64,000 bases of DNA, from assembly GCF_002019605.1 (NCBI RefSeq), contig NZ_KV917368.1, positions 5,281,885-5,345,884 on the forward strand, written 5' to 3'. Origin of the DNA: Alkalihalobacterium alkalinitrilicum (GTDB lineage: Bacteria > Bacillota > Bacilli > Bacillales > Bacillaceae_F). The notes under the pieces were generated by a model, which was given only the letters and a program-made list of their open reading frames with translations, was not told where the DNA came from and did not search any database. A program made the position numbers and the translations under genes. Positions 2,669 through 8,015 of this stretch are shown here, piece by piece (within the stretch, counting starts at the first letter, position 1; every line of letters starts with the position of its first letter).

Positions 2669-3220
2669 GTGCGCCCAGCATGGGTGCAATCTATAGGGTG
2701 AAAGTCCCGAACTGTGAAGGCAGAAGTAGCAGTAGCTTAACGCAAGGGTGCCTGTGGTGACGCAGGATCTGAAGGAAGCGAGCGGCAAACTTCCGGTCTG
2801 AGGAACACGAACTTCATATAAGGCTAGGTATCATTGGGTGAGTCTGCTAAACAAGACAAAGTCCTTTCTGCCAAAGGTGATACAGAGTAAATGAAGCAGA
2901 TAGATGGAAGGAAAGATTGTACTCTTACCTGGGGAGGTCTGACTGATAAGCCGAGCACACTCGGTAACCTATTTAGCGATAAATAGCTGAACAGTCAGAA
3001 GTCAGCAGAGGTCATAGTACTCGACTAGCTTAAGATAGTCGAGGAAGGGCCGAACATTTAGGAAGAATGTGCGCTAGGCGTTCATTGTTTATGATGATAC
3101 AGACAATCCAAATTGGACTTACTTAAAGGAGGAAACGGTGAATCCCGTGGGGGACTTTAAGAGGGTGGAATAAACAATGGCACAAATAGAACGGACATTC
3201 ACGCGAGAGGATGTATCGAA

Positions 3221-3887
3221 ATGATGAAACAACTGTTGTCACGGGACAATCTGATTTCGGCTCTAAAGCGGGTCGAAAAGAATAAGGGTAAGCACGGTGT
3301 AGATGAAATGCCTGTAAAATCCCTACGAGCACATCTTCTACTTAACTGGGACGACATCCGAAATTCAATTAAAGACGGAACCTACGAGCCTATGCCAGTC
3401 AGGCGGGTCGAAATCCCGAAACCGAATGGTGGCATAAGGTTACTAGGCATTCCTACCGTGACCGATCGTCTCATCCAACAAGCGATTGCCCAAGTCTTAA
3501 CCCCGATTTATGATCCAACCTTTTCTAAACATAGTTATGGTTTCAGACCAAGAAGAAGAGCCCATGACGCTGTAAAGGAAGCGAGGGCATATATAGAGGA
3601 AGGGTACAGATGGGTGATAGACATGGACTTAGAAAAATTTTTCGATAGAGTGAATCACGATATGCTTATGGGTCTTTTGGAGAAAAGAGTCCATGATAAA
3701 ACGATTCTAAGGCTAATTAGAAAATACTTAGAATCAGGAATCATGATAAACGGTGTGGAAGGTATCAGCGAAGAAGGTGTCCCGCAGGGCGGGCCGTTAA
3801 GTCCGTTATTATCTAATATCATGTTAGATGAACTTGATAAGGAACTGGAAAAGAGAGGGCACAAGTTTGTCAGGTACGCAGATGACT
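3221..3887 (+). CDS. Outer intron reverse transcriptase/maturase, 5' segment
   Basis: First 222 codons plus one base of the IIC intron-encoded protein. Reverse-transcriptase blocks are visible: RVEKNKGKHGVDEMPV, EIPKPNGGIRLLGIPTVTDR, SYGFRPRRRAHDA, DLEKFFDRVNHD, GVPQGGPLSPLLSN and finally RYADD at residues 218-222. The frame is cut inside the following Cys codon by the inner intron. Joining base 3887 to base 5754 restores TGT AAT ATC TAC without a shift and gives a 418-residue protein, the usual length for this family. Unspliced, this segment ends at a stop at 3910 and would be inactive because the RT palm is incomplete. Confidence 0.9.
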
Positions 3888-4432
3888 GTGCGCCACGAAA
3901 GTGTGCGTGAGTAGCGAGACTACTCAAAGCAACTATGCTGTACAAATGATGACGGTGGGCCCGTCGGAGTCGCCATACAGGTGGAGATTTCAAACTACCT
4001 TAAGGTGCTGTAGTCAAAAGCTATGGTATTGAGCGTTAAGGAAAAGGCAGTCAATAACTGTCAAGTGCGTGTTATGGAGATGAATGGTCATGTGAACCAC
4101 TTACGGAAATGTCGAAAGCGTAGAGACTCCATCAAAACTAGGGGGTAGTCGTTAACTTAGGATGAGCTTAGAGGAAACCTGTTTACTGTCTAAGTGGTGG
4201 GCGGCATAAAGGTGGCATGAACATAACACAGGCGTTTGTACGGAACGTGGGAACCTACGGACTGATGTTAAGGGAGTATTTCAAGTGGAAGACCCACAAG
4301 AAAAGAGTACCGATGCAGTCATAGGGGCAGATTGGGTTGTAGTAGTTATGAAACTTCTGTAATAGAAGCGGAGCAAAGAACCCGAGTTATTCAGTTTCAA
4401 AGATAGGTCAACTTTGAAAGGAGGAGGAACCT

Positions 4433-5695
4433 ATGCGAGAAACAAAACCGTTTAGTATTTCAAAGAATGCAGTTCTGACTGCATTTGAACGAGTAAAAGC
4501 CAATAAAGGGACATACGGGACTGATGAACAGTCTATTGAAAGTTTCGAACTAGACTTGAAGAATAATCTGTACAAACTATGGAATCGTATGTCCTCAGGA
4601 AGCTATTTTCCAAAACCAGTAAAAGCAGTAGCTATTCCCAAAAAGAATGGTGGAACAAGAACACTTGGAATACCTACAGTCGAAGATCGAGTGGCACAGA
4701 TGGTTGCGAAACTATATTTTGAACCAACAGTGGAAAAATTGTTTTATGAAGATTCTCATGGATACCGACCAAACAAATCGGCAATCCAAGCGATCGAGGC
4801 TACAAGGAAAAGATGTTGGCGAAAAGACTGGGTGCTAGAGTTCGATATTAAGGGACTGTTTGATAATATCCGACATGATTACCTCATTGAAATGGTAAAA
4901 CGACATACAAATCAAGAATGGGTCATCTTATATATACAAAGATGGCTAACTACCCCTTTTCAAATGGAGGACGGGACGTTAGCAGAGCGAACTTCTGGCA
5001 CTCCGCAAGGAGGAGTCATCAGTCCAGTTCTTGCGAATCTATTTCTTCATTATACATTTGATGATTTTATGGCGAAGGAATTTCCAAGTATTCCTTGGGC
5101 AAGATACGCCGATGATGGAATAGCACATTGTACTTCATTGAAACAAGCAAAATATCTTCAACGAAGACTGGAAGAAAGATTTCAATTATTTGGATTGGAG
5201 TTGAACTTGGAGAAAACGAAAATTGTCTACTGTAAAGATGATGATAGACAACGGAACTATCCGACTATTACTTTTGATTTTCTCGGATACACATTTCGAC
5301 CAAGACACTCAAAGAACAAATATGGAAAATTCTTCACAAACTTCTTACCAGCTATTGCTGATAAGGCAAAGAAAGCAATCAGAAAAGAAGTGAGAAGTTG
5401 GCGATTACAGCTCAAAGCAGATAAAACTCTGCAGGATATTTCCAACATGTTTAATAAGAAAATCCAAGGATGGATTAATTATTATGGACATTTCTATAAA
5501 TCAGAAATGTATAGTGTATTGCGTTACATCAATAGCTGCTTGGTAAAATGGGTTCGCCGAAAATACAAGAAGCGAAAACATCGAAGAAGAGCAGAATATT
5601 GGTTAGGAGCTATTGCTCGGCGAGAACGCAAATTATTTGCGCATTGGAAATATGGATTACTACCGGCAATGAATAATGGGAGCCGTATGAGCTGA
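4433..5695 (+). CDS. Inner intron reverse transcriptase/maturase
   Basis: A complete 420-residue group II intron protein. RT blocks in order: ERVKANKGTYGTDEQSIE, AIPKKNGGTRTLGIPTVEDR, SHGYRPNKSAIQAIE, FDIKGLFDNIRHD, TPQGGVISPVLANL and YADD at residues 225-228, so the catalytic aspartates are present. Residues ~290-380 form the maturase (X) domain (IQGWINYYGHFY), and a very basic tail follows (RRKYKKRKHRRRAEYW). No HNH endonuclease cysteine cluster is seen. Start ATG follows AAAGGAGGAGGAACCT, a strong ribosome site. Its last codons overlap domain V of its own intron RNA. It appears functional and would promote splicing and retromobility of its intron. Confidence 0.93.
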   Translation: MRETKPFSISKNAVLTAFERVKANKGTYGTDEQSIESFELDLKNNLYKLWNRMSSGSYFPKPVKAVAIPKKNGGTRTLGIPTVEDRVAQMVAKLYFEPTVEKLFYEDSHGYRPNKSAIQAIEATRKRCWRKDWVLEFDIKGLFDNIRHDYLIEMVKRHTNQEWVILYIQRWLTTPFQMEDGTLAERTSGTPQGGVISPVLANLFLHYTFDDFMAKEFPSIPWARYADDGIAHCTSLKQAKYLQRRLEERFQLFGLELNLEKTKIVYCKDDDRQRNYPTITFDFLGYTFRPRHSKNKYGKFFTNFLPAIADKAKKAIRKEVRSWRLQLKADKTLQDISNMFNKKIQGWINYYGHFYKSEMYSVLRYINSCLVKWVRRKYKKRKHRRRAEYWLGAIARRERKLFAHWKYGLLPAMNNGSRMS

Positions 5696-5713
5696 GAGGT
5701 TCACGTACGGTTC
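5680..5713 (+). ncRNA. Domain V of the inner group II intron
   Basis: Thirty-four bases, GAGCCGTATG at the 5' arm and CGTACGGTTC at the 3' arm, with an AGC catalytic triad at 5681-5683 and a GAGA tetraloop on an inner helix. This is the canonical size and fold of the catalytic domain V. It overlaps the end of the intron protein gene by 16 bases. Domain VI follows to about 5750. Confidence 0.88.
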
Positions 5714-5753
5714 TGAGAGAGACTGAGGGGGAGGTTCCCTCGGTCTACTCACT

Positions 5754-6343
5754 GTAATATCTACGTGAAAACACAGAAGTCAGGTCTACGAGTGAAGAGT
5801 TCCCTCACAACTTTCATTGAAAAGAAACTCAAGCTGAAAGTGAATGATGAGAAAAGCGCAGTAGATCGACCGTGGAAACGAAAGTTTCTAGGTTTCAGTT
5901 TTACTCCTCACCCGTCACCAAAGATCCGTATCGCCAAAGAGAGTATAAAGAGAGCGAAAAGCAAAATCAAAGAACTAACATCACGCTCACACTCCATCTC
6001 AATGGAAGAGCGTATTGAGAAGATCAATAAATACCTCGTTGGATGGTGTGGATATTTTGCCTTGGCGGATACGCCAACTCCCTTTAAACGCCTTGATGAA
6101 TCACTGAGAAGAAGACTTCGGATGTGTTTATGGAAGCAATGGAAATTGCCTAAAACTAAAATAAAAAGGCTTATCTCTCTTGGAGTTCCCAAGGAGAAAG
6201 CTTATGAATGGGGTAATTCCCGCAAGAAATATTGGCGCATCTCGAACAGTCCTGTTTTAAACACGACGCTTAACCTAGAGTTTTGGCGAAATAAAAAGCT
6301 GAAAAGTCTAGTAGACAGATATAACCACTTACGTCATACCTAA
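5754..6343 (+). CDS. Outer intron reverse transcriptase/maturase, 3' segment
   Basis: Continuation of the protein begun at 3221, resuming with the last two bases of the YADDC cysteine codon and then NIYVKTQKSG. It contains RT block 6/7 (KLKVNDEKSAV, WKRKFLGFSF) and the maturase domain (YLVGWCGYFALADTP, WKLPKTKIKRLISLG, EWGNSRKKYWRISNSP) to the natural stop. No frameshift or nonsense codon is present, so the outer protein has remained intact apart from the insertion. Translation of this part depends on removal of the inner intron. A GTG at 5765 could in principle start a separate fragment but has no convincing ribosome site. Confidence 0.9.
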
Positions 6344-6346
6344 GTG

Positions 6347-6380
6347 AACCGCCGTATACGGAACCGTACGTACGGTGGTG
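6347..6380 (+). ncRNA. Domain V of the outer (IIC) group II intron
   Basis: ACCGCCGTATACG and CGTACGTACGGTGGT form the stem around GAAC, carrying a CGC catalytic triad (CCGCCG) as in class IIC introns. Domain VI (about 6386-6412, GGTCGGGGG pairing with CCCCCTCC) follows and the intron ends near 6417. The protein stop codon lies only a few bases before domain V. Confidence 0.82.
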
Positions 6381-6686
6381 TGAGAGGTCGGGGGTTAGTC
6401 ACCCCCTCCTACTCGATTAAGAACTAATTTTTGATTTCCTGATTTATAAAAAGGAGAATTGAAATCAGAGGTAGAAGTTGTATTATATATTGCCTTATTC
6501 TTTATAAAGAATAAACATGTCTAATTTAAATAAGGAATGATGACTGAATTTTCTTCTATCTTGGGCTCCATTATCATACAACTATACTATAAGCCATGTT
6601 CGCTTAGCTAACGGATTCATTCTAACGTGCATAGAATGATTATAAGTAATGTTGACAAATGAACTTTTAGTCAGGAGGCGCAAATA

Positions 6687-8015
6687 TTGAATAAAGTTTA
6701 CGTCTTGGATACGAATGTATTACTACAAGATCCTCATGCGATTTATGCTTTTGAAGATAATGAAGTTGTCATACCAGCGGTCGTGTTAGAGGAAGTAGAC
6801 TCAAAAAAGCGTTATATGGATGAGATTGGCCGCAACGCTAGGCATTTCTCAAAAATGATGGACAGCCTAAGAGGAAAGGGAAAATTGCATGAAGGAGTTG
6901 TTATTGAAACAGGTGGTAAGGTACGAGTTGAACTTAACCATCGCTCATTTCAAAAATTAAAAGACTCATTTGCAGAAATGACAAATGATAACCGTATTAT
7001 TGCTGTTGCTCTTAATTTAATGATTGAAGAAAAGGAAAAGGAGTATGGCAGAGAAGTTATTCTTGTTAGTAAAGATGCGTTAGTCCGCGTAAAAGCAGAC
7101 GCCTTAAAAATACCATCAGAGGATTATTTGAGTGATCGCGTAATTCAATTTAATGATGTCTACCCTGGTTATGTAGAAGTGTATGTTGAAAAAGAGATCG
7201 TCAATCAATTCTTCGTTGATAATGAGATTGCTATTTCAGAATTAGCGAAGCACCCCTTTTATCCTCACCAATTCATTATTATGAAAGATGCGCTCGGAGG
7301 TTCCAGTTCAGCTTTAGGAAAAGTTGAACCTGATGGAAAAAAAGTAAAACCATTTCAAGTTGACCCTGATCAAGTTTGGGGGATTAAAGCAAGAAATGTA
7401 CAACAAAAAATGGCTCTTGAGCTCCTTCTCAGACGAGATATCCCGTTAGTAACATTAATTGGGAAAGCAGGAACAGGAAAGACCTTGCTATCTCTAGCTT
7501 CAGGTTTACTCCAGACAGAAGACTTAGGTTTATATAAAAAGTTATTAGTCGCGAGACCTGTCATTCCTGTAGGGAAAGATATCGGCTTTTTACCAGGTGA
7601 AAAAGAAGAAAAACTTAGACCGTGGATGCAGCCAATTTATGATAACTTAGAATACCTCTTTAATACTAAGAAGCCAGGAGAATTAGATCAAATATTAGCT
7701 GGAATGGGTTCCATTCAAGTAGAAGCATTAACATATATACGTGGTCGAAGTATACCAGATCAATTTATTATCATTGATGAGGCTCAGAATTTAACAAAGC
7801 ATGAAGTGAAGACCATTCTTACTCGAGTTGGTGAACGAAGTAAAATTGTTCTTATGGGAGATCCAAAACAAATTGATCATCCATATTTAGATGAATATAA
7901 TAATGGTTTAACCTACGTGGTGGAAAAGTTCAAGGATCAAACGATTAGTGGGCATATTAAGCTTGAAAAAGGTGAACGCTCTGGGTTAGCTCAGCTTGCT
8001 GCAGATTTACTTTAA
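6687..8015 (+). CDS. ylaK: PIN-PhoH family ATPase YlaK
   Basis: A 442-residue protein, the same length as B. subtilis YlaK. Residues 1-~140 are a PIN domain with an early catalytic aspartate (VLDTNVLL, D8) and further acids; residues ~235-442 are a PhoH-type ATPase/helicase-like domain with Walker A GKAGTGKT (~258-265) and Walker B FIIIDEAQN (~359). PIN-PhoH proteins are thought to act on RNA; the exact substrate in bacilli is unknown. The start is TTG 6687, 8 bp after AGGAGG (6673-6678). The 269 bp between the intron end and this gene hold no recognisable gene; ylaJ, found here in B. subtilis, is absent. A bidirectional terminator follows. Confidence 0.93.
   Translation: MNKVYVLDTNVLLQDPHAIYAFEDNEVVIPAVVLEEVDSKKRYMDEIGRNARHFSKMMDSLRGKGKLHEGVVIETGGKVRVELNHRSFQKLKDSFAEMTNDNRIIAVALNLMIEEKEKEYGREVILVSKDALVRVKADALKIPSEDYLSDRVIQFNDVYPGYVEVYVEKEIVNQFFVDNEIAISELAKHPFYPHQFIIMKDALGGSSSALGKVEPDGKKVKPFQVDPDQVWGIKARNVQQKMALELLLRRDIPLVTLIGKAGTGKTLLSLASGLLQTEDLGLYKKLLVARPVIPVGKDIGFLPGEKEEKLRPWMQPIYDNLEYLFNTKKPGELDQILAGMGSIQVEALTYIRGRSIPDQFIIIDEAQNLTKHEVKTILTRVGERSKIVLMGDPKQIDHPYLDEYNNGLTYVVEKFKDQTISGHIKLEKGERSGLAQLAADLL

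Follow-up and report, generated by a model that had tools for sequence, protein, structure and literature searches.

A group II intron at the YADD codons of another intron's reverse transcriptase gene, and its relatives at the same motif

A twintron behind a terminator-like hairpin

The window, a 64,000-nucleotide stretch of Alkalihalobacterium alkalinitrilicum (C1:5281885-5345884 of a two-contig genome), has a 3749-base group II intron flanked by a PNPOx-family gene (2173-2643) on its 5' side and by phoH (6687-8015) on its 3' side. We found that the reverse transcriptase (RT) gene of this intron is interrupted, at the codons of its YADD motif, by a complete second group II intron that encodes an RT of its own. 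A preliminary description had proposed this nesting, with an outer intron of IIC type and an inner intron of another lineage bearing an intact RT, and Rfam, Pfam and recurrent copies in the genome agree with it. Going beyond that description, the insertion at YADD is the homing site of a widespread intron lineage and no one-off. The features are as follows.

2636-2668, + strand: intrinsic-terminator-like hairpin with T-rich tail, insertion point of the outer intron; the 40 upstream bases fold at -20.2 kcal/mol
2669-6417, + strand: outer group II intron, class C/IIC type, interrupted; Rfam D1D4-3, D1D4-1 and Intron_gpII, and a near-identical second copy with different flanks
3221-3887, + strand: 5' exon of the outer RT gene, ending with YADD and the first base of the next codon; RVT_1, TIGR04416 positions 2-216
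3875-3879, + strand: putative intron-binding site 2 (IBS2) TAYGC, Tyr-Ala codons, in the exon; 5/5 pairing with exon-binding site 2 (EBS2)
3881-3887, + strand: putative IBS1 GAYGAYT, Asp-Asp codons and one further base, in the exon; 7/7 pairing with EBS1
3888-5753, + strand: inner group II intron, class D/RmInt1-like; D1D4-2, Intron_gpII ending at 5753, covarying fold, copies at two other sites
4118-4122, + strand: putative EBS2 GCGUA, from position and pairing
4147-4153, + strand: putative EBS1 AGUCGUU, in the loop of a covarying hairpin (columns 273-277/291-295); pairing, permutation and shift check
4433-5695, + strand: inner intron-encoded protein, 420 amino acids, RT and maturase domain; RVT_1, GIIM, TIGR04416 at 411.2 bits
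5678-5753, + strand: inner domains V and VI; RF00029, 60.8 bits
5754-6343, + strand: 3' exon of the outer RT gene (thumb, maturase part); GIIM, TIGR04416 positions 221-353
6347-6417, + strand: outer domains V and VI; RF00029, 47.6 bits

The nested arrangement is confirmed and exact. In Rfam, the outer intron matches D1D4-3 at 2751-2923 (142.2 bits) and D1D4-1 at 2965-3050 (76.6 bits), the inner intron matches D1D4-2 at 3951-4066 (107.7 bits), and the two Intron_gpII matches to domains V and VI end precisely at 5753 and 6417. Pfam finds RVT_1 only in 3221-3910, GIIM only in 5765-6343, and RVT_1 together with GIIM (and, weakly, RdRP_1) in 4433-5695; the TIGR04416 score of the inner RT compares with a cut-off of 300. 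The insertion point lies after the first base of the codon next to YADD, and the outer reading frame stops 23 bases past the junction 3887/3888. Without 3888-5753 the frame is restored exactly, as had been claimed: 667 + 590 = 1257 bases give 419 codons including the stop, the 5' half ending in ...HKFVRYADD and the rejoined codon T|GT leading into NIYVKTQKSG.... Within the window the inner boundary is ambiguous by one base, with a T at either side. It is settled because a third copy, at locus L058, aligns with the empty sites of its uninterrupted relatives L072-L074, which gives an inner intron of GTGCG...CACT without target duplication. A complete intron thus lies inside another intron, which makes the pair a twintron.

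The outer intron is of class C, as judged by its position directly behind a terminator and by the lack of a detected endonuclease domain, GIIM being the sole Pfam match in the 3' part of its RT. A terminator-like hairpin lies directly 5' of the outer intron in all seven copies that retain a 5' end (L065 included), and six of these have a T-rich tail, L069 having no clear T-run. Rfam matches to its RNA are limited to D1D4-1 and D1D4-3 in the 5' part and to domains V and VI. The inner intron appears to be class D-like (IIB3, RmInt1-like): Pfam found no endonuclease (HNH) domain in the protein at 4433-5695, and its RT is 57% identical to intron RTs of Sinorhizobium meliloti, one of which (L188) is in our tree. 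Ribozyme domains, proposed earlier as a check on the inner intron, are present, with Rfam matches to both domains I-IV and domains V-VI, and the consensus fold of the 5' regions of 28 inner-intron relatives has two-sided changes in 99 of 140 pairs.

The inner intron recurs twice in the same genome, 99.9% and 99.3% identical to the window copy. The first recurrence is a second copy of the whole nested pair (C1:1358341-1362098), behind another terminator-like hairpin; across 3749 bases the two pairs are separated by only three substitutions, of which two fall in the inner RT and the third in the outer RT, each of them synonymous. Identity between the two copies extends only 3 bases upstream of 2669 and 1 base downstream of 6417, beyond which the flanks diverge, and this confirms the outer boundaries. 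A plain segmental duplication without mobility of the pair would leave such near identity over 3749 bases as well; we regard this as extremely improbable, given where the identity ends and the different terminator at each copy. The second recurrence, L058 (C1:1497218-1500410), is a copy of the inner intron that interrupts the YADD codons of a distinct class C intron, one whose family also sits behind terminators and whose uninterrupted relatives L072-L074 show the empty site.

Other outer-intron sequences were seen on contig C1. Two window-type outer introns, L059 (C1:1605500-1615500) and L062 (C1:2784000-2790500), 99% and 75% identical, are both interrupted within another motif of the RT, DLE[K/R]F (window position about 3640), at one shared point; the L059 insert has tyrosine-recombinase-like open reading frames on the opposite strand (judged by eye, without a family scan), and related parts occur in L060 and L061. 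The contig starts with the 3' end of an outer intron (L063) and finishes with its 5' end (L064), so the assembly probably breaks within this repeat; the two parts are consistent with one further outer copy. Elsewhere the window contains typA, PhoH, glutaminase, pyruvate carboxylase and bshC genes and an Rfam ylbH leader, a gene content that suggests a Bacillaceae chromosome; a 124-base unit stands in four tandem copies (96% matches) at 1252-1755, upstream of the PNPOx gene.

Relatives at YADD codons

Relatives of the inner RT were chosen by protein similarity alone, from genomes of the order, plasmids, phage contigs and a collection with one genome per species. They occur in 8 of 397 genomes of the order, the window's own included (E 1e-70 or better), and among 7 genomes of the family only in the window's; the one-genome-per-species search gave at least 403 relatives in 583 stretches, of which the best 80 of 403 were used. 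The sample holds 117 loci with an inner-like intron, 116 on the tree plus L058, and 94 of them were scored, either because 30 or more bases were available upstream of their 5' junction or because they were added by hand (L058, L186, L188, L189, L190, L193). Under a strict pattern, TWY-GYN-GAY-GAY with the intron starting after the first base of the next codon, the intron lies at one fixed phase of YADD codons in 69 of the 94 loci, or 66 without three same-place duplicates. Chance as the origin of the nested site is excluded, because the intron recurs twice in the same genome and these 69 relatives share the YADD phase. A YADD site on plasmid pMl3 of Sinorhizobium meliloti (L188) is occupied by two class D-like introns in a row, the second abutting the end of the first.

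The interrupted genes are mostly RT genes of different kinds. We aligned 58 of 67 5' exons, leaving out copies, same places or variant motifs (L110, L111, L118, L151, L154, L173, L178, L082 and L090), and 50 of 58 3' exons, with the same list left out except L118. RVT_1 matched 55 of the 58 5' exons; one matched phage terminase models and one Glyco_hydro_92, and the mean column identity of the 58 different exons was only 23%. The 50 3' exons matched GIIM (29), RVT_1 (6), HNH (4) and Intron_maturas2 (3). On phage contig L086 the host gene encodes a retron-type RT, its 5' half matching positions 8-177 and its 3' half positions 180-285 of the NCBIfam retron St85 RT; neither half reaches the cut-off set for the whole protein. 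Identical intron proteins sit in different RTs of one genome in Enterococcus avium (L107/L108/L109), Sporosarcina globispora (L153/L167), Pelosinus fermentans (L097/L098) and Bacillus sp. OV166 (L148/L149). Organism names were available for 49 of the 66 YADD loci: 43 in Bacillota, 2 in Pseudomonadota and one each in Acidobacteriota, Planctomycetota, Myxococcota and Bacteroidota, several of these being contigs of metagenome-assembled genomes that may be misbinned.

Clustering the host RTs by single linkage at 45% identity was set aside, since 60 of 65 fell into one chain. Viral contigs scanned for a DNA pattern yielded 61 matches, almost all of them attributed to chance; four retained two or more of the three intron features tested: L206, taken for chance, L209, an HADD site that is not counted, and L245 and L250, on contigs already sampled.

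Both host exons are open in 42 of 52 fully flanked loci, which bears on whether the nested pair is a wreck: the insertion could have killed the outer RT, with inner splicing negligible and whole copies spread in trans by an uninterrupted RT. The genome does hold five uninterrupted RTs (L009-L013) from another intron family that resides at terminators. Truncation or interruption by other elements affects several outer copies, and L058, the third copy, has a frameshift in its inner RT, which counts against our preferred reading as well. Besides the open exons of the relatives, however, both frames are open in the window, all three differences between the whole copies are synonymous (a small number), and the uninterrupted RTs stand well apart from the window's outer intron, whose 5' part has no match in L070-L074 and 66.7% identity over 273 bases in their relative L058. 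We consider a wreck unlikely.

A guide matched to the motif codons

Two conserved blocks of the inner intron pair with the 5' exon: AGUCGUU with GAYGAYT, the 7 bases 5' of the junction, and GCGUA with TAYGC at positions -13 to -9. Exon position -8, the four-fold degenerate position of the Ala codon, is left unpaired by the guide, so that the matched coding sequence is UAYGC-N-GAYGAYU. The AGUCGUU block lies in the loop of the hairpin with two-sided changes listed above; an early by-eye candidate for EBS1 near window position 4085 was dropped when the alignment showed AGUCGUU as the conserved site. At 68 YADD sites (one of the 69 loci has no gap-free EBS), mean pairing is 6.84/7 for EBS1 and 4.97/5 for EBS2, and all 12 positions pair in 56 of 68. 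The two-fold synonymous positions -2, -5 and -11 vary between C and T and are faced by G of the guide in 67, 67 and 64 of the 68 loci; where the exon has T, it faces G in 33/33, 44/44 and 36/40 cases. At the non-synonymous positions -1 and -13, exon T faces guide A in 55/55 and 68/68 cases. One guide can thus take most YADD spellings, because G faces the two-fold positions and the four-fold position is unpaired. In the YADD codons of the introns themselves, position -1 is G in 64 of 66 cases, and 59 of the 66 pair with the guide at 11 of the 12 positions, one pair fewer than most targets. This is only suggestive of self-avoidance, because the family may usually carry A or G as the residue next to YADD.

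The 25 scored loci that deviate from the strict pattern include five or six variant sites with the same guide (SADD, LADD, CADD, YCDD, YLDD and similar). Across all 25, the mean pairing of guides with their own sites is 5.96/7, versus 4.14 with swapped sites, and none of 20,000 shuffles was as high. Twelve loci have a clearly different guide, differing from AGUCGUU at three or more places. When a register shift of up to 4 bases is allowed, nine of these pair 7/7, two pair at 6 positions and L169 at 5, versus means of 4.0 to 5.7 with the sites of other loci under the same shift; L122, L133, L168 and L169 had paired poorly in the alignment register, and the shift lifts the first three to 7/7. 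L186 and L190 have altered YAD-like sites and fitting guides. L084 and L085, with 54% and 53% protein identity to the inner RT, are inserted inside domain V of class C introns, their guide CACCACT matching GGTGGTG before the junction; TGAGAGG follows the junction in L085.

At L170 (Paenibacillus profundus), the guide CGUUGUU/UAGCA stands at TGC TAC GAT AAT G, with G facing third codon positions. We take this site to be the conserved CYDN motif of IS3-family transposases.

The association with YADD might instead come from recognition of RT genes by the intron protein, or from inherited residence, with no RNA pairing to the motif codons. Skew is also seen at positions -15, -18 and -21, which an RT coding context of any kind would produce, and RmInt1, a class D intron, is described as using 20 bases of 5' exon (PMC5894124), which makes upstream protein contacts plausible. 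Protein recognition of RTs is difficult to square with L140, where the intron lies at the QYADD codons of a PBSX-family phage terminase large-subunit gene, or with L116, where it lies at the HYADD codons of a gene that has no PADLOC or NCBIfam match. Nor would it explain that the guides of retargeted relatives fit their own sites, or that identical introns occur in different RTs. We consider this alternative very unlikely.

Interpretation and relation to known systems

Taken together, the inner element is very probably a class D-like intron with a guide to YADD codons, inserted in the outer RT gene and belonging to a lineage that lives mainly in RT genes. It would be a retrohoming group II intron whose EBS1 AGUCGUU and EBS2 GCGUA read the coding strand for Tyr-Ala-Asp-Asp. 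The position in the YADD codons of a class C intron RT gene and the copies are seen directly; the insertion itself would have occurred by reverse splicing, as described for RmInt1 retrohoming (PMC5894124). Splicing of the inner intron in vivo would rejoin the split codon and restore the outer RT/maturase; this and splicing of the outer intron are predicted from the layout. The near-identical second copy suggests that the pair then spreads jointly to at least one more terminator. Among the relatives examined, most members of the lineage reside in other retroelements' RT genes; such genes carry the motif, move and are often present in several copies. That the outer intron depends on the inner one for its maturase and mobility, as claimed from the outset, would follow from the layout and is plausible; it is unproved because other RTs of the genome might help in trans.

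Several points weigh against this reading. The 25 scored loci are off the strict pattern, as are five unscored relatives (L187, L191, L192, L194 and L195), and 10 of the 52 fully flanked loci fail the cut for two open exons, two of them in non-RT genes (L116 and L140). On the tree, the YADD label changes at least 20 times, versus a shuffled mean of 30.1; the tree is a quick one with weak deep branches, and L096, L113 and L156 (SADD, LADD and CADD) are labelled YADD there and stand outside the 69. Because of those weak branches, we claim no single origin. The pairing rows are related introns, near-copies included, and so are not independent; the EBS assignments are putative, based on covariation and analogy with RmInt1; and an original target with C throughout could have left G opposite the synonymous positions as a relic, with no adaptation involved. 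Within the window's genome, TAYGCNGAYGAY occurs 27 times, versus 15 for the reversed pattern. Seventeen of these are in RT matches (three the inner introns' own motif, three occupied and 11 empty), so that 14 RT genes besides the inner's own carry it and three are occupied; none of the 10 matches outside RT matches was seen occupied. The 11 empty sites mean that the motif alone is no predictor of insertion, and the counts establish no preference for RT genes over other YADD-coding sites inside one genome.

We lean slightly towards a broader reading, in which an old, multi-phylum lineage specialises as a hyperparasite on elements that use reverse transcription, both introns and at least one retron-type RT. 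Its guide would be tuned to an amino-acid motif by G-U wobble at the two-fold positions and by the lack of contact with the four-fold position, so that a single RNA could recognise the catalytic YADD codons in nearly every RT, and relatives would have been retargeted to other conserved motifs, such as class C domain V, by EBS change.

Precedents exist both for group II introns nested in one another and for introns that home into the RT genes of other introns. In Methanosarcina, group II introns are reported to lie inside RT genes of other group II introns (PMC4424553, PMC1712230), and nested arrays are shared with the present case; here, the hosts are bacteria, the host RTs are of many kinds, retron-type included, and the site is fixed at YADD. 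In Thermosynechococcus elongatus TeI4::TeI3, the inner intron likewise occupies a conserved outer site and identical inners occur in diverged outers, whereas here an RT-encoding intron of another lineage sits in active-site codons (PMC2882425). RmInt1 and RmInt2 of Sinorhizobium meliloti (IIB3/class D) share the lack of an endonuclease domain and a 7-base EBS1 (PMC5894124, PMC4238363), which in RmInt1 is UUUCGUC, versus IBS1 GAUGAGA (PMC4238363); unlike the introns described here, RmInt1 resides in ISRm2011-2 and RmInt2 targets ISRm17, neither of them an RT gene (PMC5894124, PMC4238363). The Trichodesmium twintron is also a bacterial group II twintron in a protein-coding gene, with documented sequential splicing, whereas the gene interrupted here is the outer intron's own RT (PMC4649490). 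In the Porphyridium plastid mat1f twintrons, one protein-encoding inner intron occurs in two different outers; there, the outer proteins are remnants and the target described is domain IV, and here it is YADD (PMC4476101).

Among the open-licence papers searched, none was seen to describe an intron lineage with YADD codons as its fixed site or a guide matched to codon degeneracy. In one intron collection, 21 of 513 sequences are described as excluded, being twintrons or containing multiple intron copies (PMC4028801), and a collection program misses the outer intron by its own account (PMC8919778). The YADD lineage may therefore have been hidden by programs that drop or mishandle nested introns.

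The finding opens questions about regulation or suppression of other retroelements, interference with retron-type RTs and retargeting between conserved motifs. It connects element-on-element competition with programmable RNA targeting, through a natural guide that would tolerate synonymous variation. The target is the active-site code of the competitors' enzyme, from which those competitors can hardly mutate away.

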